A stretch of DNA of 64,000 nucleotides from Fibrobacter sp. (GTDB taxonomy: Bacteria; Fibrobacterota; Fibrobacteria; Fibrobacterales; Fibrobacteraceae): contig NZ_JAFWOM010000027.1 of assembly GCF_017545445.1 (NCBI RefSeq), forward strand, positions 1 through 64,000. The letters run 5' to 3'. Positions 47,429-60,766 of the stretch are shown piece after piece; position 1 is the first letter of the stretch, and each line of letters starts with the position of its first letter. The notes under the pieces are model-generated. The model was not told where the DNA came from. It worked only from the letters and a program-made list of their open reading frames with translations, and did not search any database. Position numbers and translations under genes: made by a program.

Positions 47429-47548
47429 GCCACACGGATTTTTTTGCCACACGGATTGTATACACCAAATGCTAGACTCGGTTATAGGTCTGCAAGCAGC
47501 CCTGCAACACTCGCCTTACGCATTTGTCGATTTTCCTAACGGAAAATC
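47429..47548. repeat. Left-end repeats before first GxxExxY gene
   Basis: Two GCCACACGGATT copies (47429-47440, 47446-47457), a diverged variable-stem element on the minus strand (about 47476-47514, stem CTGCAAGCAG) and the hairpin GATTTTCCTAACGGAAAATC (47529-47548). Confidence 0.75.
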
Positions 47549-47559
47549 AAGGAAAAAGT

Positions 47560-47943
47560 ATGATAATTAACGAGAATGAAACGGGAAATATAATAAAGGC
47601 ATGTTTTGAAGTCCATAATGAATTGGGTCATGGATTTCTTGAAGCCGTATATCAAGAAGCTTTGGAAGAAGAATTTAAATTGCAAGGCATCCCGTATGAG
47701 AGGGAAAAACTGCTCCCTGTATTTTACAAAGGAAAGGCTCTTAAGAAAGAGTATTATGCGGATTTTATCTGCTATGATAAAATAATTGTTGAATTAAAAT
47801 CTGTGAGTGTTTTGTCTAAACCACATAAGGCTCAGGTGCTAAATTATTTGAATGCAGCAAAAAAGGATATCGGATTGTTGGTAAATTTTGGCGAAACATC
47901 GTTAAAATGGGAAAGGATAACGAATTTTAAAAAGGAAAATTAA
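47560..47943 (+). CDS. GxxExxY-family PD-(D/E)XK protein (copy 1)
   Basis: Start at 47560 after AAGGAAAAAGT. The 127-residue product has GHGFLEAVY (GxxExxY motif, about residues 24-30) and KKEYYADFICYDKIIVELKS, the D...ExK core of PD-(D/E)XK nucleases. It is almost identical to copy 2 at 51282. It sits between hsdR and hsdM, inside the restriction locus. Family function is unknown; the fold suggests a nuclease. Confidence 0.85.
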   Translation: MIINENETGNIIKACFEVHNELGHGFLEAVYQEALEEEFKLQGIPYEREKLLPVFYKGKALKKEYYADFICYDKIIVELKSVSVLSKPHKAQVLNYLNAAKKDIGLLVNFGETSLKWERITNFKKEN

Positions 47944-47969: not shown

Positions 47970-48096
47970 GCCACACGGATTCGATTTTCCTAACGGAAAA
48001 TCAAGGAGAAAAAATGGGAATGAAAGTGATAAATGCAGAATTAAGTGTTTTTATTAAAACCAAGAAATTGCGTTAGCAATTTCCAATCCGTGTGGC
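47970..48096. mobile_element. Empty 127-bp TIR element (MITE-like)
   Basis: GCCACACGGATTCGA (47970-47984) and AATCCGTGTGGC (48085-48096) form inverted ends. Inside the ends are hairpins GATTTTCCTAACGGAAAATC and GAAATTGCGTTAGCAATTTC (48064-48083). It has the ends of the GxxExxY cassette but no nuclease gene. Confidence 0.65.
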
Positions 48097-49790: not shown

Positions 49791-49896
49791 AATCTTGACA
49801 TTAGGCCTTTTATTATGTATATTTATGAACAAGAAAACCCTGCACGCCTCTTTGCAATGCGCAACCAGCGGGGTTCTTTTTTTAGGGGAGGGGTAG

Positions 49897-50808
49897 GTGC
49901 CGCTAAGTGTTTACAATAAACCTCCCTTGTCGTTGCAGGATCAGGCGAGACTTTTGATTTCCAGAGGACTTCAAGGAATTACGGAGTCGGAACTTGTACA
50001 GGTCCTTTCAAATATCAGTTATTACCGCCTGCGTGGATATACATATCCATATCAGAATAATGCCGTGCCGGGGAGCCCATTCCTTACTGGGGTCTGTTGG
50101 GCTTATATCAAGAACGATTACGAGTTTGATGTGGGTCTAAGGACCATTGTTTCGGAAGCTTTATCTTACATTGAAATAGCTGTTCGCACACAGATGGAAT
50201 ATCATCTTTCGTTATCCCATGGATCGCGCTGGTATGAAGATTCGGCCCTGTGCAATAGCCAGAATATTTTCCGGGACAACTTGGACGAACTGCGTAAGCA
50301 CTGGAACCGTTCGCGGGAGGTTTTCAAGGAGCATTATCTAAACAAATATGATTCCTCTGTTTCGCCGCCTGCATGGATGATTTTTGAAACGACCACTTTT
50401 GGTACGGTATCAAAGACCTTCTCTAACCTCAAAAACAACATTCCCGCCAAAACCGCCGTGGCCCAATATTTTGGATTCAGCCGCAATACCATGCGTGTCC
50501 TGGTAAGCTGGTTCCAGCATTTAAACCTTGTCCGTAACATTTGTGCCCATTATTCGCGACTTTTCACTAGAAGTTTTATCGTGCGGCCGATGATACCGAT
50601 TCACAGGCCTACAAAATGGGTTGATAGCATTCCACGGCAGGACCGGATTTATTTTTCTTTGTGTATCATTACAAAGTTGTTGGATAGTTGTGCGCCAAAT
50701 TATCAGTTCAAGGAAAAATTGAAAGAACTGATGAAAAAAGTTCGTCGTGATCAGCTGCCGTCATTGGGATTCCCAGAGAACTGGCGAGAACAGGATTTAT
50801 TTACATAA
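49897..50808 (+). CDS. Abi_2 (AbiD/AbiF-like) protein with HEPN motif
   Basis: GTG start after GGGGAGGGG. The 303-residue product has the Abi_2 opening (SLQDQARLLISRGLQGITES, SYYRLRGYTYPYQ) and RNICAHYSRLF (about residues 212-222), an R-x4-H HEPN RNase motif. AbiD/F proteins stop phage growth by abortive infection, probably by cutting RNA. It lies between hsdM and hsdS. Confidence 0.88.
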   Translation: MPLSVYNKPPLSLQDQARLLISRGLQGITESELVQVLSNISYYRLRGYTYPYQNNAVPGSPFLTGVCWAYIKNDYEFDVGLRTIVSEALSYIEIAVRTQMEYHLSLSHGSRWYEDSALCNSQNIFRDNLDELRKHWNRSREVFKEHYLNKYDSSVSPPAWMIFETTTFGTVSKTFSNLKNNIPAKTAVAQYFGFSRNTMRVLVSWFQHLNLVRNICAHYSRLFTRSFIVRPMIPIHRPTKWVDSIPRQDRIYFSLCIITKLLDSCAPNYQFKEKLKELMKKVRRDQLPSLGFPENWREQDLFT

Positions 50809-50830: not shown

Positions 50831-51237
50831 GCCACACGGATTGTACAAAGTACCAAATGCTAGGCTCGGTTATAGGTCTGCAAGCAGCCCTGCGACGCTC
50901 GCCTTACGCATTTGTCGATTTTCCTAACGGAAAATCTTTGTAGAAATCATAAGGGATGTGTCATTCTGAGCGAAACGAAGTGAAGTCGATAAACGAAACT
51001 TGACAACTTGTTGGTTTAGTTGAGTTATCCCCTTTGGGGAAGAATCTAGGAAAAAAGAAAGATGAACTATTTGAATGGATATACAAAGGGGGAAGTCTCC
51101 CCCTCGCTCCAGCCCCGTCTAAGGTCCCTGAGCCTGCCGAAGGGCCGGGCTTCCGCTACCCCTTCTAGCGGGGGCACCCCGCAACGCCCCGATAACGCCA
51201 CACGGATTGTTCAAGGAACCAAATGCTAGTCTATAAT
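50831..51237. repeat. Left-end repeat and dispersed repeats before second GxxExxY cassette
   Basis: GCCACACGGATT (50831-50842), a variable-stem element on the minus strand (50864-50900, flank GAGCGTCGC), GATTTTCCTAACGGAAAATC (50917-50936), then dispersed CATTCTGAGCGAAACGAAG and GAGCCTGCCGAAGGG repeats and another GCCACACGGATT near 51197. No gene seen. Confidence 0.65.
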
Positions 51238-51702
51238 GCCACACGGATTCGATTTTCCTAACGGAAAATCAAGGAAAATGTATGATAATTAACGAGAACG
51301 AAACGGGAAACATAATAAAGGCTTGTTTTGAAGTCCATAATGAACTAGGTCATGGATTCCTTGAAGCCGTATATCAAGAAGCCTTGGAAGAAGAGTTTAA
51401 AATGCAAGGTATCCCGTATGAGAGAGAAAAACTGCTCCCTGTATTTTATAAGGGAAAACCGCTGAAGAAAGAATACTATGCGGATTTCATCTGTTATGAC
51501 AAAATAATCGTTGAACTAAAATCAGTGAGTGTATTGTCGAAACCGCACAAAGCTCAAGTATTGAATTATCTGAATGCTGCAAAAAAAGATGTTGGATTGT
51601 TGGTGAACTTTGGGGAAACCTCGTTAAAATGGGAACGTATAACGAATTTCAAAAAGGAAAATTAACCAAGAAATTGCGTTAGCAATTTCGAATCCGTGTG
51701 GC
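51238..51702. mobile_element. GxxExxY cassette with 15-bp perfect terminal inverted repeats
   Basis: GCCACACGGATTCGA (51238-51252) and its reverse complement TCGAATCCGTGTGGC (51688-51702) bound a 465-bp unit with one gene. Inside each end is a hairpin: GATTTTCCTAACGGAAAATC on the left, GAAATTGCGTTAGCAATTTC (51670-51689) on the right. Reading both ends inward, the outer 15 bases and the TAAC loop are the same but the stem bases differ in compensated fashion. No transposase is inside. Confidence 0.75.
51282..51665 (+). CDS. GxxExxY-family PD-(D/E)XK protein (copy 2)
   Basis: A 127-residue product, nearly identical to copy 1 (a few residues differ, e.g. KMQG for KLQG, KPLK for KALK, DVGL for DIGL). 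It has the GHGFLEAVY motif and ADFICYDKIIVELK core. Many third-position differences from copy 1 show protein-level conservation. It is the cargo of the TIR cassette 51238-51702. Confidence 0.87.
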   Translation: MIINENETGNIIKACFEVHNELGHGFLEAVYQEALEEEFKMQGIPYEREKLLPVFYKGKPLKKEYYADFICYDKIIVELKSVSVLSKPHKAQVLNYLNAAKKDVGLLVNFGETSLKWERITNFKKEN

Positions 51703-51785
51703 AAAGAAAAAGAATCTTGGTGAACTTGAATATGGAAATGATATTAGACGAAAGACGAGAGACGAAAGACGAAAAAGTTAGCGGT

Positions 51786-53057
51786 ATGGGAATGTACAAG
51801 CTAGGAGACTTGTGCAGTGATGTTGTTGATTGCCCTCATTCCACACCAGAATGGAAAAACGAAGGAATTCGTGTCATTAGAAATTTCAATATTGTTAATG
51901 GCTCTTTAGATTTTTCAAATGGGTTCTTTGTTGATGAAGAAACTTTTGAAAAAAGAACACAAAGAGCATGTCCTGAATTTGAAGATTTAGTGATATCAAG
52001 AGAAGCCCCAATGGGAGCTGTTTGTATGATTCCAAAAAATCTAAAATGTTGCTTGGGACAAAGATTGGTTCTTCTAAAGGTTAATAAAGATGTTGCAGAT
52101 TCAAACTATATATTGTTTGCTATTCAAAGTCAATTTGTTCAAAAGCAGATTCAGATTATTGATCAAACAGGCTCTATTGTTAGTAATTTAAATATTCCGG
52201 ATTTAAAGTCTTTGCTGATTCCTTTGCCTCCTTTATCAGAGCAAAAGAAAATCGCTTCCGTTCTTTCCGCATTAGACGACAAAATCGCCCTGAACAAAAA
52301 GATGAACCAGAAACTCGAAGCAATGGCAAAACGCCTATACGACTACTGGTTCGTCCAATACGACTTCCCCGACAAAAACGGCCACCCCTACAAAACCACC
52401 GGCGGCCCCATGACCTACAACGAAACCCTCAAACGTGAAATCCCTGTAGGGTGGGACGTTGCTCCTATATCTGAATTTATTGAAAAGAATTTTAATGGAG
52501 AATGGGGAAAAGAAGATGCTTCCGAAGATGACATTCGTGTACACTGTGTTCGTGGAGCTGATATCGTTGATATGGTAGATATGCCCGTCCGTTATATTTC
52601 AACAAAAAAGAAAGATCGTATTCTGAATCCAAATGACATCATTGTTGAAATATCTGGAGGTAGCCCAACGCAATCTACGGGAAGAGCAACTTTTGTAACG
52701 CGGAATACATTAAATCGTTTTGATTCTCCCATGACGTGCTCAAATTTCTGTCAAATTATTCGATTGAAAGATGCCAAATGCGCTTCTTATTTCTTTGAAA
52801 TGTGGCAGAAATTCTATGCAAGTGATATTTTCTTCAACTTTGAAGGAAAGACAAGCGGTATAAAGAATTTTCAAACAGATTCTTTTATAGCGACTCCTTG
52901 GGCTCATCCACCAAAAGAGTTGATGTATAAATTTGATGAAATGTATCAATCATTCATGAAAAAGAAAGAAAGGTTGATTGCTGAAAATCAAAAACTCACC
53001 GCCCTCCGCGACAAACTCCTCCCACTCCTCATGAACGGCCAAGTAGTGGTACATTGA
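51786..53057 (+). CDS. hsdS: Type I restriction enzyme specificity subunit
   Basis: Start taken at 51786 (MGMYKLGDLCSDVVDCPHST), the normal HsdS beginning; the frame is open upstream to the cassette end and includes RRETKDEKV from a GACGAAAGACGAGAGACG repeat, so a longer form is possible. The product has two target-recognition domains separated by a conserved helical spacer (LPPLSEQKKIASVLSALDDK), with a second spacer at the C-terminus. It sets the DNA target sequence. It overlaps the next gene by 3 bases. Confidence 0.92.
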   Translation: MGMYKLGDLCSDVVDCPHSTPEWKNEGIRVIRNFNIVNGSLDFSNGFFVDEETFEKRTQRACPEFEDLVISREAPMGAVCMIPKNLKCCLGQRLVLLKVNKDVADSNYILFAIQSQFVQKQIQIIDQTGSIVSNLNIPDLKSLLIPLPPLSEQKKIASVLSALDDKIALNKKMNQKLEAMAKRLYDYWFVQYDFPDKNGHPYKTTGGPMTYNETLKREIPVGWDVAPISEFIEKNFNGEWGKEDASEDDIRVHCVRGADIVDMVDMPVRYISTKKKDRILNPNDIIVEISGGSPTQSTGRATFVTRNTLNRFDSPMTCSNFCQIIRLKDAKCASYFFEMWQKFYASDIFFNFEGKTSGIKNFQTDSFIATPWAHPPKELMYKFDEMYQSFMKKKERLIAENQKLTALRDKLLPLLMNGQVVVH

Positions 53058-56000
53058 AAAAGGTACAATATATGTCTATTTTAACTATACTGAATTCAAT
53101 ACCAAAAATTATACCTATAATATTGGATTTTCGGAAAATTTTTTCATTAGATGTTTTAAAAAGAAAACTTGATGATAGTATTTTCAAGTTAGGCCCTCGT
53201 TATACGCCTGAATTGCATGTGAATTTGCCAATTGAAGAAAATTTTAAAATGTTAGCTAAAGATGAAGATAGCCTTAGCTGTATGTTTCCCTATTTTAAGG
53301 GATTTAGTGAAAAAAGCAATGGTGTAGGATTGGTTGGAAATTCTCAATACGATAACTTAGTTGATAATTTTAAACAAAGTGTAGATTTTATAGCGAATTT
53401 TTATTTTTCTTTTGAAAAAAATAGAAGAAAGCCTGTTGATCTTGATTCTTTAAAAAACGAAATCGAAAAAGCCAACAAAATGTTGGTGAATATTTATATG
53501 TGTGGATTGAACCTAAAAAAACAAACGGTACCAAAAGAAATCAAAAATCAGATACAATATAATGAAGTAAAAATAAATGATGCTGGAAACGAATTAAGGA
53601 AACTGCAGAAATTTTTTAATGAATCAGGGCGTTTCATACAAAATCAAATAATGTTAATTGTAGGTAAAGCTGGTTCTGGCAAATCGCATTTGCTTGCTGA
53701 TATAGCTACGAAAAGACTTCAGTGTAAAAAATGGACTTGTCTTTTTTTGGGGAATACCTTTGAAAGGGGAAGTCTTTGGAAACAATTTTTAGAAAAGATG
53801 TCGGTAAAATGGGATGAGATAATCTTTTTGCGTTGCCTTAATCTATATGGTTGGTTAAAGCGTTGTCGATGTTTGATTTTTATAGACGCGTTAAATGAAT
53901 GTGATGTTCCGAATTTCTGGGCGCAAAATTTGGAAATGTTTCTGAACGATATTCGCAAATATCCCAATGTTGGGGTTGTTTTAAGTGTTCGTTCAGAATA
54001 TAAAGATTATGTTATATCTGAGCGGGTACAATCTTTACTTTGCCTTGTTACGCATAAAGGATTTAACACGGCTTCTTTTGAGGCTGTTAAACACTTTTTT
54101 GAATATTATGAAATAAATCTTCCAAATACGCCCATGCTGAATCCTGAATTTTCTAACCCTTTATTTTTAAAACTTTTTTGTGAATTGTTAAAAAAAAGAG
54201 GATTGCACGAAATTCCTAGTGGGTTCAATAGTCTTCTTGATATTTTCAAAAACTATATTGAAGATGTTAATGAAAGAATTTCAAGAAAATATAATATAGA
54301 TCCTTCACTGTATTTAATAAGAACATCTATAGAAAATATTGCTTTAGAAATGTTGAAACAAAAAAAAGAACTGATATCTAGCGAATGCGCTCTCAAATCA
54401 CTAGATGAATCATTCTGTAGTTCAGGAATTAGAGCTGTAGATATTTTTAGTGAATTAGTGTCTGAGGGAATTCTAATAAAATCTTATGATAAAGAAAAAA
54501 AAGTAAGTATATTGTTTGCTTATGAAAGATATTATGATTTATTGGTCGCGAAAGCTTTGCTCGGAACAGAACATAATCCTGAAAATATTAAATTAATGTT
54601 TAAAGATGGTGGTTCATTGCATGAGTATGTTACATCTGAATTTGGTTTTTTCAATTATGTTGGGCTTTTGAATGCGTGGGCAATTCTTTTACCAGATAAT
54701 TATGATTTGGAACTTTTCGAAATAATTGCGGATGAAGATATCATAGCAACGCAAGAGCCTTTTATTGAAGGGCTGTTGTGGCGTAAGAAAATAGATATAA
54801 GAAAAATTCATAATTACATAATTACATATATTTTGCCAGAAAAATATTATAAAAATAAATGGCTAGACACGCTTCTACTTTTGTGCTCAAAGCCAGAATG
54901 TGCATTAAATAGCGATTATCTCCATGAATATTTATTCCCATTAAGTATGGGAAACCGGGATGCTGAATGGTCTATTTTTATAAGTACACAAGATGACTCT
55001 GATATAAATAATGTTAAACGAATAATTGATTGGACTTGGCATAATGATGATTTAGAATTATTATCTGATGAATCAACTCGGTTATTAGGCCAAATGTTGA
55101 TTTGGTTTTTGACATCAATGAATAGAGAAGTACGAGATGAATCATCAGCAGCTCTTGTAAATTTGCTGAAAAATAAAATAGATGTTTTGATTTTCTTGTT
55201 AGATAAGTTTAAGAATGTGAATGATCCATATGTTTTGCAGAGAATGTACGCAGTTGCTTTTGGATGTGTGACAAATAATTTTAATAGGGAAAGTATAAAA
55301 AGTTTGTGCGAATGTGTATATAAAAATATTTTTGAATCTGCAAATGTTGTTCCTGATATTTTATTACGTGATTATGCAATGAATACAATTGAATATGGGA
55401 AATATTTAGGTATAAAATTTGATTTTGACATAAGGAAAATTTATCCACCATATAGAAGTGTAATGCCGACGCATTTCCCCACAAATAGTGATGTTGATGC
55501 AAACTTGATTCCTTATGGAAAAAAGGTTGTTAGTTCTCCAGAATATGCAATAAATATAATTCTACATTCCATGACAACAGAATATGGTCGAGGAACATCG
55601 CATTATGGAGATTTTGGAAGATATGTTTGGGATAGTGCTTTTGATGATTGGAATATTGATACCAATTTATTGAGTAATTACGCCATAATGTGGATTCTAA
55701 AAGATAGTGGGTATGACTATAATATTCACGGTGAATTTGATATGAGTGTGTCTCATGGCGAACGTTTTGGAAATATATGTGAACGGATAGGAAAAAAATA
55801 TCAGTGGATTGCTTTCTATGATTTGCTTGCAAGAGTGTCTGATAATTGCCAAATGAAAAAAGGTTCGTATAAGGGGAGCTTTGAACCCTTTGTAAGAGAT
55901 TTTGATCCGACAACTATAAAAAAATCTATTTATAGTGCAGATGAATCTTTTTATTCTAGCATAATGAAAAAATTTCATTGGAATCAAAAAAATAGAAAAT

Positions 56001-56776
56001 GGATTGCAAAAAAGAATAACTTTCCTTCTGTAGGAAAATTTCTTTTTGAAAAAGATGCTGATAACGTAGAATGGATAATTTTGAACAAGTCAATGCATTT
56101 AAAACAATCAGATCGATTAAATGGAATGTTCAAGCCAAAGAAGGATTTCTTTTGTAGTGTAAACAGTTATATTATGACAGATAACGATTTTAATTCGTTT
56201 AAGAGTTGGGCGAAAAAACAAAATTTTTATGGAAGATTATTGCCAGAAAGCCATCAATGTTACAAGGTTTATTCTAGAGAGTACTGTTGGTCTAAAGCTT
56301 ATGAAGCTGAATATGGTGATGATTATGATTGGGCTACGATTAGCGATTTGAAGAAGAAAGATGTTGCCGTGGTTGCATTGACAAACTACTATTATTATTG
56401 GGAAAATGAATACGATCATTCAAAAAGAAGTCTTTTTTCATTTATAAGACCTTCAAAAGAATTATGCAAATTAATGGGCTTGCGTCAAGGAATTAAAGAT
56501 GGCGAATTTGTTGATGAATCTGGTCTTGTTGTTTGCAAAAATCCTTCTGTAAACGAAAAACACCCCTCATGTTTGATGGTTAGGAAAAAAGAATTTTTAA
56601 ACGCCCTGAAAAATAATGGACTTAAAATTGCGTGGACAATTCTTGGTGAAAAACGAATAGATTCCTTAAAAAACGAAGATGATTATACATGGATGACATT
56701 ATCGGGAATTGGGTATATGAGATGTGGTAAACCTACTGTAAAAATGAATCATTTTATGAATCGAGTAAGTTCGTGA
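53054..56776 (+). CDS. Large STAND/NACHT-like NTPase, putative defence protein
   Basis: The TTG at 53054 overlaps the hsdS stop (TTGA); ATG at 53072 is the alternative. The 1240-residue product has Walker A GKAGSGKS at 204-211 and Walker B CLIFIDALNE at 273-282, then a sensor-like SVRSEYKDYV. The about 200 residues before have no recognised domain, and the long C-terminal half may be the sensor typical of STAND proteins. Very AT-rich, unlike hsdM. It is co-directional with hsdS and the Septu-like pair. An anti-phage role is inferred from fold and context only. Confidence 0.7.
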   Translation: MKKVQYMSILTILNSIPKIIPIILDFRKIFSLDVLKRKLDDSIFKLGPRYTPELHVNLPIEENFKMLAKDEDSLSCMFPYFKGFSEKSNGVGLVGNSQYDNLVDNFKQSVDFIANFYFSFEKNRRKPVDLDSLKNEIEKANKMLVNIYMCGLNLKKQTVPKEIKNQIQYNEVKINDAGNELRKLQKFFNESGRFIQNQIMLIVGKAGSGKSHLLADIATKRLQCKKWTCLFLGNTFERGSLWKQFLEKMSVKWDEIIFLRCLNLYGWLKRCRCLIFIDALNECDVPNFWAQNLEMFLNDIRKYPNVGVVLSVRSEYKDYVISERVQSLLCLVTHKGFNTASFEAVKHFFEYYEINLPNTPMLNPEFSNPLFLKLFCELLKKRGLHEIPSGFNSLLDIFKNYIEDVNERISRKYNIDPSLYLIRTSIENIALEMLKQKKELISSECALKSLDESFCSSGIRAVDIFSELVSEGILIKSYDKEKKVSILFAYERYYDLLVAKALLGTEHNPENIKLMFKDGGSLHEYVTSEFGFFNYVGLLNAWAILLPDNYDLELFEIIADEDIIATQEPFIEGLLWRKKIDIRKIHNYIITYILPEKYYKNKWLDTLLLLCSKPECALNSDYLHEYLFPLSMGNRDAEWSIFISTQDDSDINNVKRIIDWTWHNDDLELLSDESTRLLGQMLIWFLTSMNREVRDESSAALVNLLKNKIDVLIFLLDKFKNVNDPYVLQRMYAVAFGCVTNNFNRESIKSLCECVYKNIFESANVVPDILLRDYAMNTIEYGKYLGIKFDFDIRKIYPPYRSVMPTHFPTNSDVDANLIPYGKKVVSSPEYAINIILHSMTTEYGRGTSHYGDFGRYVWDSAFDDWNIDTNLLSNYAIMWILKDSGYDYNIHGEFDMSVSHGERFGNICERIGKKYQWIAFYDLLARVSDNCQMKKGSYKGSFEPFVRDFDPTTIKKSIYSADESFYSSIMKKFHWNQKNRKWIAKKNNFPSVGKFLFEKDADNVEWIILNKSMHLKQSDRLNGMFKPKKDFFCSVNSYIMTDNDFNSFKSWAKKQNFYGRLLPESHQCYKVYSREYCWSKAYEAEYGDDYDWATISDLKKKDVAVVALTNYYYYWENEYDHSKRSLFSFIRPSKELCKLMGLRQGIKDGEFVDESGLVVCKNPSVNEKHPSCLMVRKKEFLNALKNNGLKIAWTILGEKRIDSLKNEDDYTWMTLSGIGYMRCGKPTVKMNHFMNRVSS

Positions 56777-56796
56777 AAAGATAAGGAAGAAAATTT

Positions 56797-58635
56797 ATGA
56801 AAAAATATATTTCTTTTTGGATTGACAAATATATTCCATTAGACGAATTTGACTCTAGTGGTCCATGCTTATTTGAAAATTTCTTGGTCAATCTTTCATC
56901 TGAATATTATGTTCAAAAGGATGAACAACAACTTGTATTTACAATAAATAAAAGTATTTGCAAAAAGGAAGGGTATAATCCTTCATCATTTTTTTCGGAA
57001 AATATTTCTGATATGAAAGTATTTATCGGTGACAATGGTGCTGGTAAAACGCAGCTTTTAAAAAAAATAGCGAGGATTGCTGCTGGATATAATGAGTGCA
57101 AAGAGAAATATGTACTGCTATGTGTAGACGATGAAAATAAAGAGTATGGTTATATTACAAATATTGAATCCGAAATAAAATGCGTTATAGCTGAAAATAC
57201 ATTTGATGGATATAGTGGAAAACGTTATGATTTGGCAGATACTTCTGAAGAGTCTTTACTTGGAGGTTTGTATGTGTATTATTCGCCTATTTTCAATGAT
57301 GTGGATTATAGATTGGAAACAATGTCTTATACACCTATGTCATTGAATTTGAAAAATATTTCAACAGATGCTTTGATGGCCTATGATGTGAGTAGTTTAA
57401 CAATTCTTCACGAAGAGTTGGACAAAAAATATAAAGATTGTGATCGTCTTAGTGCATATCTTAAAATGGAGCATCAGAGGCTTAACGATTTTTTAATCGA
57501 AAATGGTGAATATTTTTCAACATTTTTTAATGTTCCAAATCAATTAGTTTTTAAACCAATGCTAGAAAATGTTTTGGCATGTACAAATGTACTTGTGTCT
57601 CGCAATGAGGATGCCTTTATAAATTTACATTTTGTTTACGAATTGCAAAATGAAGATAAAATTAAAGAGTTTAAATCTTTAGACGATGTTGCAAAACAAA
57701 AAATTCTAGAGCAATCAAGAATAGAAATAGTAAATCAGTTTAACTCGTTAAGTTTGGATGAAAAATTTCGCTATTCCTTGTTGTTGAATTATTATTGTCA
57801 TGATAAATTTGAATCTGAAGATGTGTTGAATGAATTGACTGGCTTTAAGGAAGTTCGTGATTTGGAATTATGGAAGCGATCTTTCCCTGTTGAATTGCAG
57901 AAAGTAATCGAAGAAATTCTTAGCGAATGTAGAAAAATAGGTATTTTACAAAAAAATGGTTATGAATTTAATGCTGAACGAAATAAGGAGCCGTTGAAAA
58001 AAATCAATCAATTGTATAACAGTCTTTTACTTGATACGCCATTCTTTGAATTTTCATTACCTAGGCCATTAAGTTCGGGAGAAAGATATCTCCTAAAATT
58101 CTATTATCGGTTGTATTCTGCGTTGAAAAATGAACGTTTTGAAAATTTATATTTGTTTATTGATGAGGCGGATACGTGCCAGCATCCGAGCTGGCAATAT
58201 CATTGGATTGAGAGATTTGTTTTAGGTTTAAAAAAGATAAGTGATTCACTTAGACAAAATGGATATATATTAAAAGATTTATCTTGCCAGATTTTTTTAA
58301 CAACGCATTCTCCATTTGTTCTTACGGAGTTACTGCGTGATAACGTTGTCTTTTTGAAAAGGGTGTATAACGAAGAGAATGGTTTTTGGCAAAATGTGGA
58401 AGTTAGGGATTATTTGGTAGAAGATAAACCATCAACATTCTTTGCTGGCAATATGTTTGATATATTAAATTCTGGTTTTTTTGTAGAAAATACAATAGGA
58501 AATTTTGCTGAAAATAAAATAAAAGAATGTATTGATTTGATAAAAAAGAGGGAAAAGAGAGATTATGTAAATATGTTGATATCGCAAATAGGTGACCCTA
58601 TATTAAAAGAGCTTGTTTCTAATCTAAGAGATTGA
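56797..58635 (+). CDS. AAA ATPase of Septu-like system (PtuA-like)
   Basis: A 612-residue protein: Walker A GDNGAGKT at 78-85, ABC-type signature LSSGERYLLKFYYRLYSA at about 426-443, Walker B LYLFIDEADTCQHPSW at about 451-466 and TTHSPF at about 503. This is the SMC/OLD-like ATPase layout of PtuA-type proteins. It is followed 4 bases later by an HNH nuclease gene. The start follows AAGGAAG. Could also be a related ATPase-HNH pair rather than true Septu. Confidence 0.75.
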   Translation: MKKYISFWIDKYIPLDEFDSSGPCLFENFLVNLSSEYYVQKDEQQLVFTINKSICKKEGYNPSSFFSENISDMKVFIGDNGAGKTQLLKKIARIAAGYNECKEKYVLLCVDDENKEYGYITNIESEIKCVIAENTFDGYSGKRYDLADTSEESLLGGLYVYYSPIFNDVDYRLETMSYTPMSLNLKNISTDALMAYDVSSLTILHEELDKKYKDCDRLSAYLKMEHQRLNDFLIENGEYFSTFFNVPNQLVFKPMLENVLACTNVLVSRNEDAFINLHFVYELQNEDKIKEFKSLDDVAKQKILEQSRIEIVNQFNSLSLDEKFRYSLLLNYYCHDKFESEDVLNELTGFKEVRDLELWKRSFPVELQKVIEEILSECRKIGILQKNGYEFNAERNKEPLKKINQLYNSLLLDTPFFEFSLPRPLSSGERYLLKFYYRLYSALKNERFENLYLFIDEADTCQHPSWQYHWIERFVLGLKKISDSLRQNGYILKDLSCQIFLTTHSPFVLTELLRDNVVFLKRVYNEENGFWQNVEVRDYLVEDKPSTFFAGNMFDILNSGFFVENTIGNFAENKIKECIDLIKKREKRDYVNMLISQIGDPILKELVSNLRD

Positions 58636-58639
58636 TATT

Positions 58640-59659
58640 ATGATGCACATAGATATTTCTCCGAATATAAGTACGATTAAATCTAAACACCTTGCGTTTA
58701 TTGCCGCAAGAAGAATTTCAGTAAAAAAAGGCAGAACAAAAAATAGAGAGATGTCCTTAGTTGCAAAACTAGATGTTTTTGAAAAAAAATATAAAAATAG
58801 ATATTCAAAATTTCCTTCCAAATTATCCAAGGAATTTTTGAAAGATTTGGATGATGTTGTTGTTGGAAATTTTTCTCGTCTTGAAGAGTTGAAATTAAAA
58901 TACGATTGTTTGCATATCAGCAAGTCAATTTTGTCAAAAAGAAAGCATAATAAATACGAAAAATTCCTAATTAGTATGGGGAAAGAAATTTTGGAATTTA
59001 TGGGTTATGATTCATTTTGCGAAGATAGTGCAAATTGGTGCTCTAGAAAATTTATTGATTTGTTGAAGGTGTCTACTTGTCCATATTGCAATGCTCAATA
59101 TATATATGTATCTTCAAATAATGAAGGAATTAAACCGCAAATAGATCATTTTTTCCCAAAAGCAGAAAATCCCATTTTTTCTTGCTCAGTTTATAATATG
59201 GTCCCATCTTGTTATAATTGCAATCATTTGAAGGCGGATAAAGAATGGCCCTTGTTTAATCCATATGTTTGCGGGTTTGATAATAACGCTGTATTTCGTA
59301 TTACTGTCAAGGATAAAGAACAGGATGATATTGATAAAATTATTTTAAGAAAAAATTTTTATGGAAATATTAAATTGTTCTTAAAAGTGGATTGTGAAGG
59401 TGTTGAAAAAATTAAAATAAATCATGCGAGAATGGCTTTTAAATTAGATGAATCATATAATTGTTTTCAGGCAGAACTAGTCGATTTAATAAAAAGACTT
59501 CAAAAATGTAATAAAATTAAAGGTGAAAATATCTCTAAAATATTAGGCTCAAAAGAGGAAATCAAAAGTTTACTTTTAGGAATCCCGCTAGGTGCAGAAA
59601 CGAAAAACTATCTTTTTAAAAAGTTAAAAGAGGATTTTTGGAAGAAATTTTACAAATAG
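58640..59659 (+). CDS. HNH endonuclease of Septu-like system (PtuB-like)
   Basis: A 339-residue protein with zinc-binding CPYCNAQYI at about 147-155, the HNH-core IDHFFPKAENPIF at about 168-180 and SCYNCNHLKAD at about 190-200. It is the nuclease partner of the upstream ATPase. It is larger than a typical PtuB, so it may be a variant family. The start could also be 58643. Confidence 0.72.
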   Translation: MMHIDISPNISTIKSKHLAFIAARRISVKKGRTKNREMSLVAKLDVFEKKYKNRYSKFPSKLSKEFLKDLDDVVVGNFSRLEELKLKYDCLHISKSILSKRKHNKYEKFLISMGKEILEFMGYDSFCEDSANWCSRKFIDLLKVSTCPYCNAQYIYVSSNNEGIKPQIDHFFPKAENPIFSCSVYNMVPSCYNCNHLKADKEWPLFNPYVCGFDNNAVFRITVKDKEQDDIDKIILRKNFYGNIKLFLKVDCEGVEKIKINHARMAFKLDESYNCFQAELVDLIKRLQKCNKIKGENISKILGSKEEIKSLLLGIPLGAETKNYLFKKLKEDFWKKFYK

Positions 59660-59665
59660 GTTTGT

Positions 59666-60766
59666 ATGCATGAATTCTTTGACAAATTTAACGATTCAAC
59701 CAAGGCAAAGCTTGGTATTTATAAGGCCTATATAACAAAATACCTTAAGGTGTTGAGTAAGGCCTATAAGCAAACGTGGAATACAAAGAATTCCGTCTAT
59801 ATAGCAGATTTATTCGCTGGTCCTGGACAAGACGAAATGGGAAATCCTGGAAGTCCCATGATTTTATTGGACTATCTTTCTCAAACATATTTGGATGACT
59901 TGCAAGTAAAAATTTGCTTTAACGAAATGAATCCTGAAAAATGCCAAAAGCTCAATCAACTTGTATATGAACATAAGGCTCCCAAACAATCCTGGGTAGA
60001 GGTGAATGTTCAAAATCAGGACTATTCGGAGTTACTTCCTAAAATAATTGCAAAACACAAAAATCATAATTATTTCAAGAGATTCTTCTTTATAGATCCT
60101 TTCGGTTATAAGGGCATTCATTTGGATGACATAAAGGCTATTTTGAATGATAGAAATACGGAACTTTTGCTCTTTTTGCCTGTATCCTTTATTTATCGTT
60201 TTAAAAGTAAGGACGAAGATTATAAAGCTATAAGAATGTTCTTAGATGATTTTATATCTGTACCAAATCCATCTATGATAGGAAGTGATGTTGCCTTTGT
60301 TCGCAGCATTCTTGATACGCTTCGAGAAAAGTTGGGCTTATTTGTTGATAGTTTTATCATTCAAGACAATTCTGGTAAAGGACATAATTGTTTGATTTAT
60401 TTTTCCAATAACCGCAAAGGTCTGGAAAAATTTGTCGAAACGAAATGGGAAATTGATGGAGAAGAGGGAACTGGTTATGAAAGGAATAAAAATGATCAAG
60501 TTTCTTTCTTGGAATCTTTTTTCAGAGACTCTCTTGAAGATAAGTTGATGTTTTATTTAAAGACTGGTTCTAAAACGAATATAGAGGTCCGTAATTTTTG
60601 TTATGAACATGGCTCTCTGCCTAAACATGGTAATGCGGCATTGAGAAAATTTGTAGAACAAGGAAAGATTCAAGTTTGTGCATGCGACGAATCTAAAAAA
60701 TTAAGAAAGAATGCGTTCTACCTTGACGATGATAAAACCGAAAAAATTTATATCAAGGCTATCTAG
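59666..60766 (+). CDS. Three-Cys-motif partner protein TcmP
   Basis: A 366-residue protein: YIADLFAGPGQDEMGNPGSP near residue 46 and RFFFIDPFGYKGIHLDDI, the hallmark of TcmP proteins, which resemble SAM-dependent methyltransferases. It is directly followed by its usual partner, the DUF5131 gene, with no gap. This pair is found in mobile and defence contexts; the biochemical role is not established. Confidence 0.88.
   Translation: MHEFFDKFNDSTKAKLGIYKAYITKYLKVLSKAYKQTWNTKNSVYIADLFAGPGQDEMGNPGSPMILLDYLSQTYLDDLQVKICFNEMNPEKCQKLNQLVYEHKAPKQSWVEVNVQNQDYSELLPKIIAKHKNHNYFKRFFFIDPFGYKGIHLDDIKAILNDRNTELLLFLPVSFIYRFKSKDEDYKAIRMFLDDFISVPNPSMIGSDVAFVRSILDTLREKLGLFVDSFIIQDNSGKGHNCLIYFSNNRKGLEKFVETKWEIDGEEGTGYERNKNDQVSFLESFFRDSLEDKLMFYLKTGSKTNIEVRNFCYEHGSLPKHGNAALRKFVEQGKIQVCACDESKKLRKNAFYLDDDKTEKIYIKAI

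Follow-up and report, generated by a model that had tools for sequence, protein, structure and literature searches.

A single-gene GxxExxY unit with inverted hairpin ends in a Fibrobacter restriction locus, and related end arrays in other bacteria

The GxxExxY element and its relatives in the window

The stretch of DNA analysed, referred to here as the window, comprises 64,000 nucleotides of a Fibrobacter sp. contig (NZ_JAFWOM010000027.1). Its GxxExxY copies lie in a restriction/abortive-infection locus, between hsd and abi genes; a restriction locus had been predicted. An inverted-repeat search delimited one complete element within this locus, with the following features:

51238-51702, + strand: complete GxxExxY element, 465 bp
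51238-51252, + strand: left outer end GCCACACGGATTCGA
51253-51268, + strand: left hairpin TTTTCC-TAAC-GGAAAA with CTAACG core, a member of a genus-wide end family
51282-51665, + strand: GxxExxY gene, 127 aa, PD-(D/E)XK nuclease family, with D68, E78xK80, Q92xxxY96 and E28 conserved
51672-51687, - strand: right hairpin, reading inward AATTGC-TAAC-GCAATT (forward-strand letters AATTGC-GTTA-GCAATT)
51688-51702, - strand: right outer end GCCACACGGATTCGA (reverse complement on the forward strand)

The original prediction of a 465-bp unit with perfect 15-bp inverted ends, one gene, no transposase, and a hairpin with a TAAC loop inside each end is borne out by these features. TAAC forms the inward-reading loop at both ends, and the complete elements examined hold either a GxxExxY gene only or no gene. 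The inverted repeat of the element (I1) is 43 nt long with 77 % complementarity.

The sole gene belongs to the GxxExxY family (TIGR04256, E = 1.9e-44; PF13366, E = 2e-41), scoring 150.7 bits against the TIGR04256 profile, for which the cut-off is 35. GxxExxY is a common annotation, to which, to our knowledge, no role has been assigned. Alignment of forty-five sequences showed E28, D68, K80, Q92 and Y96 to be invariant and E78 to be nearly so, and D68, K80, Q92 and Y96, together with E78, fit the RecB/Cas4 motif set. When the AlphaFold (AF2) model (pLDDT 91.4) was compared with the PDB using Foldseek, the best match was the Cas4 protein SSO0001 (4ic1; E = 3e-5), and the next closest solved folds were lambda exonuclease, Cas4-like and AdnAB/MGME1-type nucleases. 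Matches to S100-A8 in a PDB sequence search (E 0.05-1) were regarded as chance matches and ignored. In both fold and residues (D, E-x-K, Q-x-x-x-Y) the protein is a predicted RecB/Cas4-type PD-(D/E)XK nuclease. Between Fibrobacter copies dN/dS ranges from 0 to 0.05, while dS reaches about 1 or more, and the protein has therefore been kept intact by very strong purifying selection.

Further copies and isolated ends occur upstream of the complete element:

47429-47440, + strand: solitary outer 12-mer GCCACACGGATT, an extra left copy
47446-47548, + strand: left end of the first gene copy, consisting of GCCACACGGATT, an insertion of ~70 bp and then CGATTTTCCTAACGGAAAATC; unsplit in genome G069
47560-47943, + strand: second GxxExxY gene copy, differing from the 51282 copy at 3 aa but 46 nt
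47970-48096, + strand: gene-less derivative of 127 bp with both ends, MITE-like
50831-50936, + strand: lone end, consisting of GCCACACGGATT, the same ~70-bp insert and CGATTTTCCTAACGGAAAATC, with the gene absent
51197-51232, + strand: lone end GCCACACGGATT-GTTC-AAG-GAAC-CAAATGCTAG, a second end type with a small compensated stem

The 12-mer GCCACACGGATT is found in the window eight times exactly and nine times with one mismatch, as compared to a mean of 0.29 and a maximum of 2 in the shuffled window with one mismatch allowed. Both neighbouring copies named in the original prediction, the gene at 47560-47943 and the gene-less copy of 127 bp, are present, but the 47560 gene has no separate right end, adjoining the gene-less copy directly. 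For the 47560 and 51282 gene copies, dS is about 1.0 and dN/dS about 0.01. The insertion of ~70 bp (GTATACACCAAATGCTAG...GCATTTGT) that interrupts the left end of the 47560 copy is absent from G069. A repeat of ~70 bp (CAAATGCTAG...GCATTTG, with 7-bp inverted ends) is located at 47458-47524 and 50843-50910, with an identical insertion point, directly after GCCACACGGATT, in two window ends.

Between hsdM and hsdS, positions 49838-50808 contain an abiF RNA (RF03085) and, after it, an Abi_2 (AbiF-like) gene. The same hsdM-hsdS slot of G069 holds a different gene (L394:2895-4319), and the slot between the two GxxExxY elements thus looks like a variable defence slot. Directly after the complete element, an orphan 7-bp array (51746-51773; AGACGAA four times, one degenerate) resembles arrays which bound four-helix-bundle genes in other places.

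Hairpin ends in Fibrobacter and repeat arrays in other phyla

A genome search for the ends, set beforehand as a check, identified the pattern GCCACACGGATT-N(2-12)-CTAACG in 18/80 Fibrobacter genomes, while the reversed control gave no matches. The genome from which the window derives contains fifteen exact matches to this pattern and none to the reversed control. From the fetched stretches, 104 distinct Fibrobacter ends with a CTAACG core were collected; because the core formed part of the selection, its constancy is not fully independent, and one CTGACG variant was observed. The 12-mer and the core are separated by 8 or 9 positions in all 104 ends, among which twenty-six different stems can be distinguished. 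At the three pair positions flanking the core, 102, 104 and 104 of the 104 ends show complementarity; each of the four pair types is used, and only two G.T pairs occur among about 520 stem pairs. On average 4.85 of 5 positions pair between the arms of one end, against 2.08 for arms taken from different ends (permutation maximum 2.57), so that the stem compensation originally noted in the window holds for this larger set. It could also be explained by palindrome-templated mutation or by exchange between copies. In comparison with integron attC sites, CTAACG alone is constant in the 104 ends, and since the bases beside it vary freely, the RYYYAAC/GTTRRRY core consensus is not kept.

Complete elements that lack a gene (46-127 bp) are dispersed in Fibrobacter. 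A GxxExxY gene or remnant is found in only five of the eighteen end-bearing genomes, with G076, G077 and G004 containing many ends and neither gene nor remnant; the ends thus persist in genomes without the nuclease. A solitary end which follows a stop codon and leads into a T-run is kept across species (L142, L355 and L363), and may be one that has come to serve as a transcription terminator.

Using an ungapped inverted-repeat score over 200-bp flanks, 49/75 GxxExxY loci scored at least 12, as opposed to 5/115 control ORFs on the same contigs (Mann-Whitney p = 4e-19). These loci derive from draft and metagenome assemblies and were ranked by similarity, so that the fractions do not represent a random sample of the family. 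GxxExxY genes elsewhere are accordingly accompanied by ends, contrary to the outcome against which the original prediction had been set, namely that they never have them, while for about a third of the copies matching ends are not clearly detectable. Within the family, hairpins occur only in the Fibrobacter/Treponema clade and in a few horizontally related copies. In Treponema, the ends are CACACGGATT..CTAACG for copies close to the Fibrobacter protein and AACAAACGGATTTGTTC..CTAACG for more distant copies. The copies of the Bacteroidota, Lentisphaerota, Verrucomicrobiota, Planctomycetota, Kiritimatiellota and Cloacimonadota are usually flanked by three to four direct repeats of 9-10 bp without a compensated hairpin (for example CACGAAT, CACAGAT and CGCAAAG). 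The repeat period is 9 in 31/59 arms and 10 in 13/59 arms, and a period of 9-10 bp corresponds to about one repeat per helical turn. The commonest repeat form is CRCNRAN, and the outermost repeat usually begins with CC, reminiscent of the CCN PAM in the Cas4 systems of Sulfolobus. Recognition of shape, as originally proposed, is not general, as most other copies have direct-repeat arrays; it would be limited at most to the Fibrobacter/Treponema hairpin lineage.

Between one and eight GxxExxY copies occur in each of the twenty genomes surveyed, and the four copies of the Cloacimonadota genome G093 have ends of the CACGGAA, CACAAAT, CGCAAAG and ACAGAA types. Summed over fifty-seven copies, the match of each left end to its own right end was 1006, while permutation within genomes gave a mean of 700 and a maximum of 880 (0/5000). 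The own right end was the best partner for 42/55 copies, where sixteen were expected, and a different copy within the genome gives about the same score as a copy from another genome. Between genomes, the ends are more alike the higher the protein identity (Mantel r = 0.36; 0/2000 permutations), also among cross-phylum pairs with labels permuted within phyla (r = 0.26; 0/2000). As the dialects are copy-specific and the ends track the protein, the gene and ends form one inherited, non-reassorting unit, in agreement with the original description of a cassette. Joint descent alone yields part of this correlation, with no requirement for recognition, and the co-inheritance naturally suggests that the nuclease may recognise its ends.

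Occupied, decayed and empty sites

Empty sites were sought by means of targeted searches. At one Fibrobacter locus, a full element is found in G074, a decayed gene between two hairpins that are still perfect in G044, and only a fused scar of 20 bp, GCCACACGGATTCGTGTGAC, in G076 and G077 (L161:1948-1967, L158), while other genomes are empty. The hairpins of G044 and G074 differ by paired changes (TTTTG/CAAAA to TTTGA/TCAAA). The hsdR-hsdM junction is filled by the element in the window and G069 and is empty in eleven genomes, where stop and start abut in a sequence of the TTAAATGAAC type or a close variant. The cysD-cysN gap of the Flavobacteriaceae is empty in most of the genomes sampled, contains GxxExxY units in several, and in other members of the family is occupied by four-helix-bundle units or their arrays. 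Similarly, the gap upstream of MurC in Fibrobacter is, depending on the genome, empty, occupied by a gene-less element of the GxxExxY type or occupied by arrays of the 7-bp type. One and the same gap between cistrons has been occupied on independent occasions in separate lineages.

Between orthologous elements the whole stem may be replaced while the outer 12-mer and CTAACG core are shared, which points to exchange between copies. Occupied and empty sites were compared for target-site duplication, a check named in the original prediction, and none was seen in these comparisons or beside complete Fibrobacter elements. Filled Fibrobacter sites contain 15-60 extra flanking bases next to the element; none of the sites compared has a clean excision or insertion boundary, and no isolate pair shows one. 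GxxExxY genes share the orientation of their neighbours in 79/87 cases, as compared to 38/40 for ordinary operon genes. The orientation bias was considered as a sign of insertion at the RNA level and dropped, given that ordinary ORF triplets are equally biased. Placement in operons, being no more pronounced than for ordinary genes, is compatible with dependence on host transcription and proves nothing.

Relation to known elements and possible mode of action

TIGR02436 four-helix-bundle genes in the same genomes lie between inverted arrays with a 7-bp period (15/26 above the shuffled 99 % level) and represent a parallel element family. The 23S rRNA intervening sequence of Coxiella encodes a four-helix-bundle protein; its gene is preceded by tandem heptamers, and the inverted ends pair into a stem of 28 bp that RNase III cuts. 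It has been hypothesised that such intervening sequences were once mobile, with the ORF as mobility component (PMC4990558). Other than these Coxiella heptamers, searches of the open-access literature gave no description of arrays around GxxExxY, PF13366 or four-helix-bundle genes. The GxxExxY units share with the rRNA intervening sequences (S23/TIGR02436) a size of about 0.4-0.5 kb, one small gene, inverted ends, the lack of a transposase and short direct repeats beside the gene (the tandem heptamers of Coxiella; PMC4990558), while the chromosomal four-helix-bundle genes share inverted arrays and the cysD-cysN gap with GxxExxY. However, the GxxExxY nuclease is unrelated to the four-helix bundle, the period is 9-10 rather than 7 bp, and the loci seen lie between protein genes, outside rRNA. 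The window element neither encodes an S23 protein nor is located in rRNA, and an Rfam search of twenty GxxExxY loci gave no structured-RNA match.

Inverted ends, gene-less copies with internal deletions and dispersed sites are also features of MITEs and insertion sequences, but in the GxxExxY units the ends are arrays or hairpins varying from copy to copy, no DDE or Y1 transposase lies between the ends of complete elements, and the target-site duplication of DDE transposons was not seen. Cas4/RecB-type nucleases have the same fold and D, E-x-K, Q-x-x-x-Y residues, whereas GxxExxY is a lone gene of 127 aa, in a unit with its own inverted arrays and without Cas1/Cas2. With REP/RAYT and IS200/IS605 elements a short hairpin beside a conserved motif is shared, but the two ends of a GxxExxY unit mirror each other instead of lying on the same strand, and their stems vary freely. 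The Y1 (PF01797) transposase which would be expected of REP/RAYT systems is absent from 9/10 Fibrobacter genomes tested, including 7/8 with ends; its action in trans is likewise not supported. Homing endonuclease genes are likewise selfish units in which a small nuclease is all that is encoded, but GxxExxY has inverted arrays and many insertion sites and is Cas4-like, not of the LAGLIDADG/GIY-YIG/HNH types. The architecture of a sole Cas4-like nuclease between private inverted arrays is apparently undescribed and fits no mobile-element definition tested.

We consider the chances about even that the unit of 465 bp is a selfish element complete in itself, in which the single gene encodes a nuclease that acts on the ends of that element. 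The original prediction had left open whether the gene was cargo or catalyst, and the latter, though a putative role, is the better supported. The ends would be inverted recognition arrays belonging to the Cas4/RecB-type nuclease of the unit, composed of three to four direct repeats in most bacteria, while in the Fibrobacter/Treponema lineage the inner repeats would have been replaced by a hairpin with a fixed CTAACG core. The nuclease may bind and cut ends of its own dialect, and cutting would serve movement of the unit, or its copying by break repair into sites without the gene. The unit may prefer, or best survive in, gaps between co-directional genes, where it would be expressed by host transcription, with gene-less copies arising as by-products of internal deletion. 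More tentatively, and with confidence somewhat short of even, GxxExxY may constitute a widespread minimal class of mobile element, with a Cas4-like nuclease that reads a private end code as its sole machinery. Nuclease and code would co-evolve, so that non-cross-reacting units coexist in one genome, and a parallel class would use four-helix-bundle proteins and 7-bp codes, the 23S rRNA intervening sequences being its best-known members. The inverted arrays around its own gene provide a specific, testable partner for GxxExxY. If the nuclease reads a private code which differs between copies, this would be an unusually small self-mobilising system whose DNA recognition is naturally diversified and possibly programmable. 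Should the wider proposal be true, the old puzzle of the rRNA intervening sequences would become part of a larger class, and much short-period repeat sequence between bacterial genes would be accounted for.

It is unlikely that the ends instead belong to a transposon or MITE family moved in trans by some recombinase, with GxxExxY carried along as cargo, such as a nuclease for defence or addiction. This would suit the location of the window copies in a restriction/abortive-infection locus, the far greater abundance of Fibrobacter ends than of the gene and the dispersed gene-less copies, but the pairing of gene and ends is held across many phyla while the end dialect shifts with the protein, and the Y1/REP-type transposase is missing as described above. 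Also unlike typical mobile cargo, GxxExxY matched 0 of 50,697 phage records, on which basis phage cargo was rejected, and 8/72,556 plasmids, in collections that under-represent these hosts. Larger end-bounded stretches in G076 contain no recognisable transposase. Larger cargo was also considered for G076 ends spaced 1-1.4 kb apart and rejected; the ORFs between them encode ordinary host-type proteins, and such ends are therefore probably neighbouring independent elements.

The near absence of G.T pairs from the stems argues against selection for RNA pairing, and the array arms have no excess of transcript-strand G.U-type differences (104 vs 123, p = 0.23); RNA pairing was rejected on these grounds as the main cause of the matched ends. 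Both observations count against a regulatory role, in which GxxExxY is an ordinary operon gene and the arrays are operators, terminators or RNA-processing sites, with the hairpins working in the transcript. Co-directional placement within operons would agree with such a role, as would solitary Fibrobacter ends past stop codons that lead into T-runs and are conserved between species (e.g. GGAATCACTAACGTGATTCCTTTTTT), but the presence, absence and independent refilling of one gap would not be expected of a resident gene, and we regard a regulatory role as quite improbable.

As a variant of the selfish-element reading, the nuclease might not insert the unit itself but cut array pairs that lack a gene; a gene-bearing copy would then serve for their repair, and new sites would arise by illegitimate events only. 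Copies that retain intact ends but lack the gene are frequent, exchange at repeats appears to have patched the gene copies of the window, and both the whole-stem replacements and the lack of observed target duplication are in keeping with this homing. However, it requires a separate route for new sites, and none of the sites analysed here directly shows the return of the gene to a gene-less copy. We regard homing as a decidedly doubtful alternative. Entry or exit of the unit at the transcript level, with ends that pair in RNA and are cut by RNase III, is suggested by same-strand insertion between cistrons and by the RNase III-cut stem of the sister four-helix-bundle family (PMC4990558), but is very improbable given the absent G.U signature, the DNA exonuclease/Cas4-type fold, the lack of Rfam matches in the loci searched and a unit that encodes neither reverse transcriptase nor splicing enzyme.

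Past hsdS, the region 53054-60763 encodes a weak NACHT/AAA-like protein, an AAA_15/AAA_21 ATPase and two ORFs with no Pfam match, one of which contains CxxC-type motifs and is HNH-like by eye. These are probably further defence genes.
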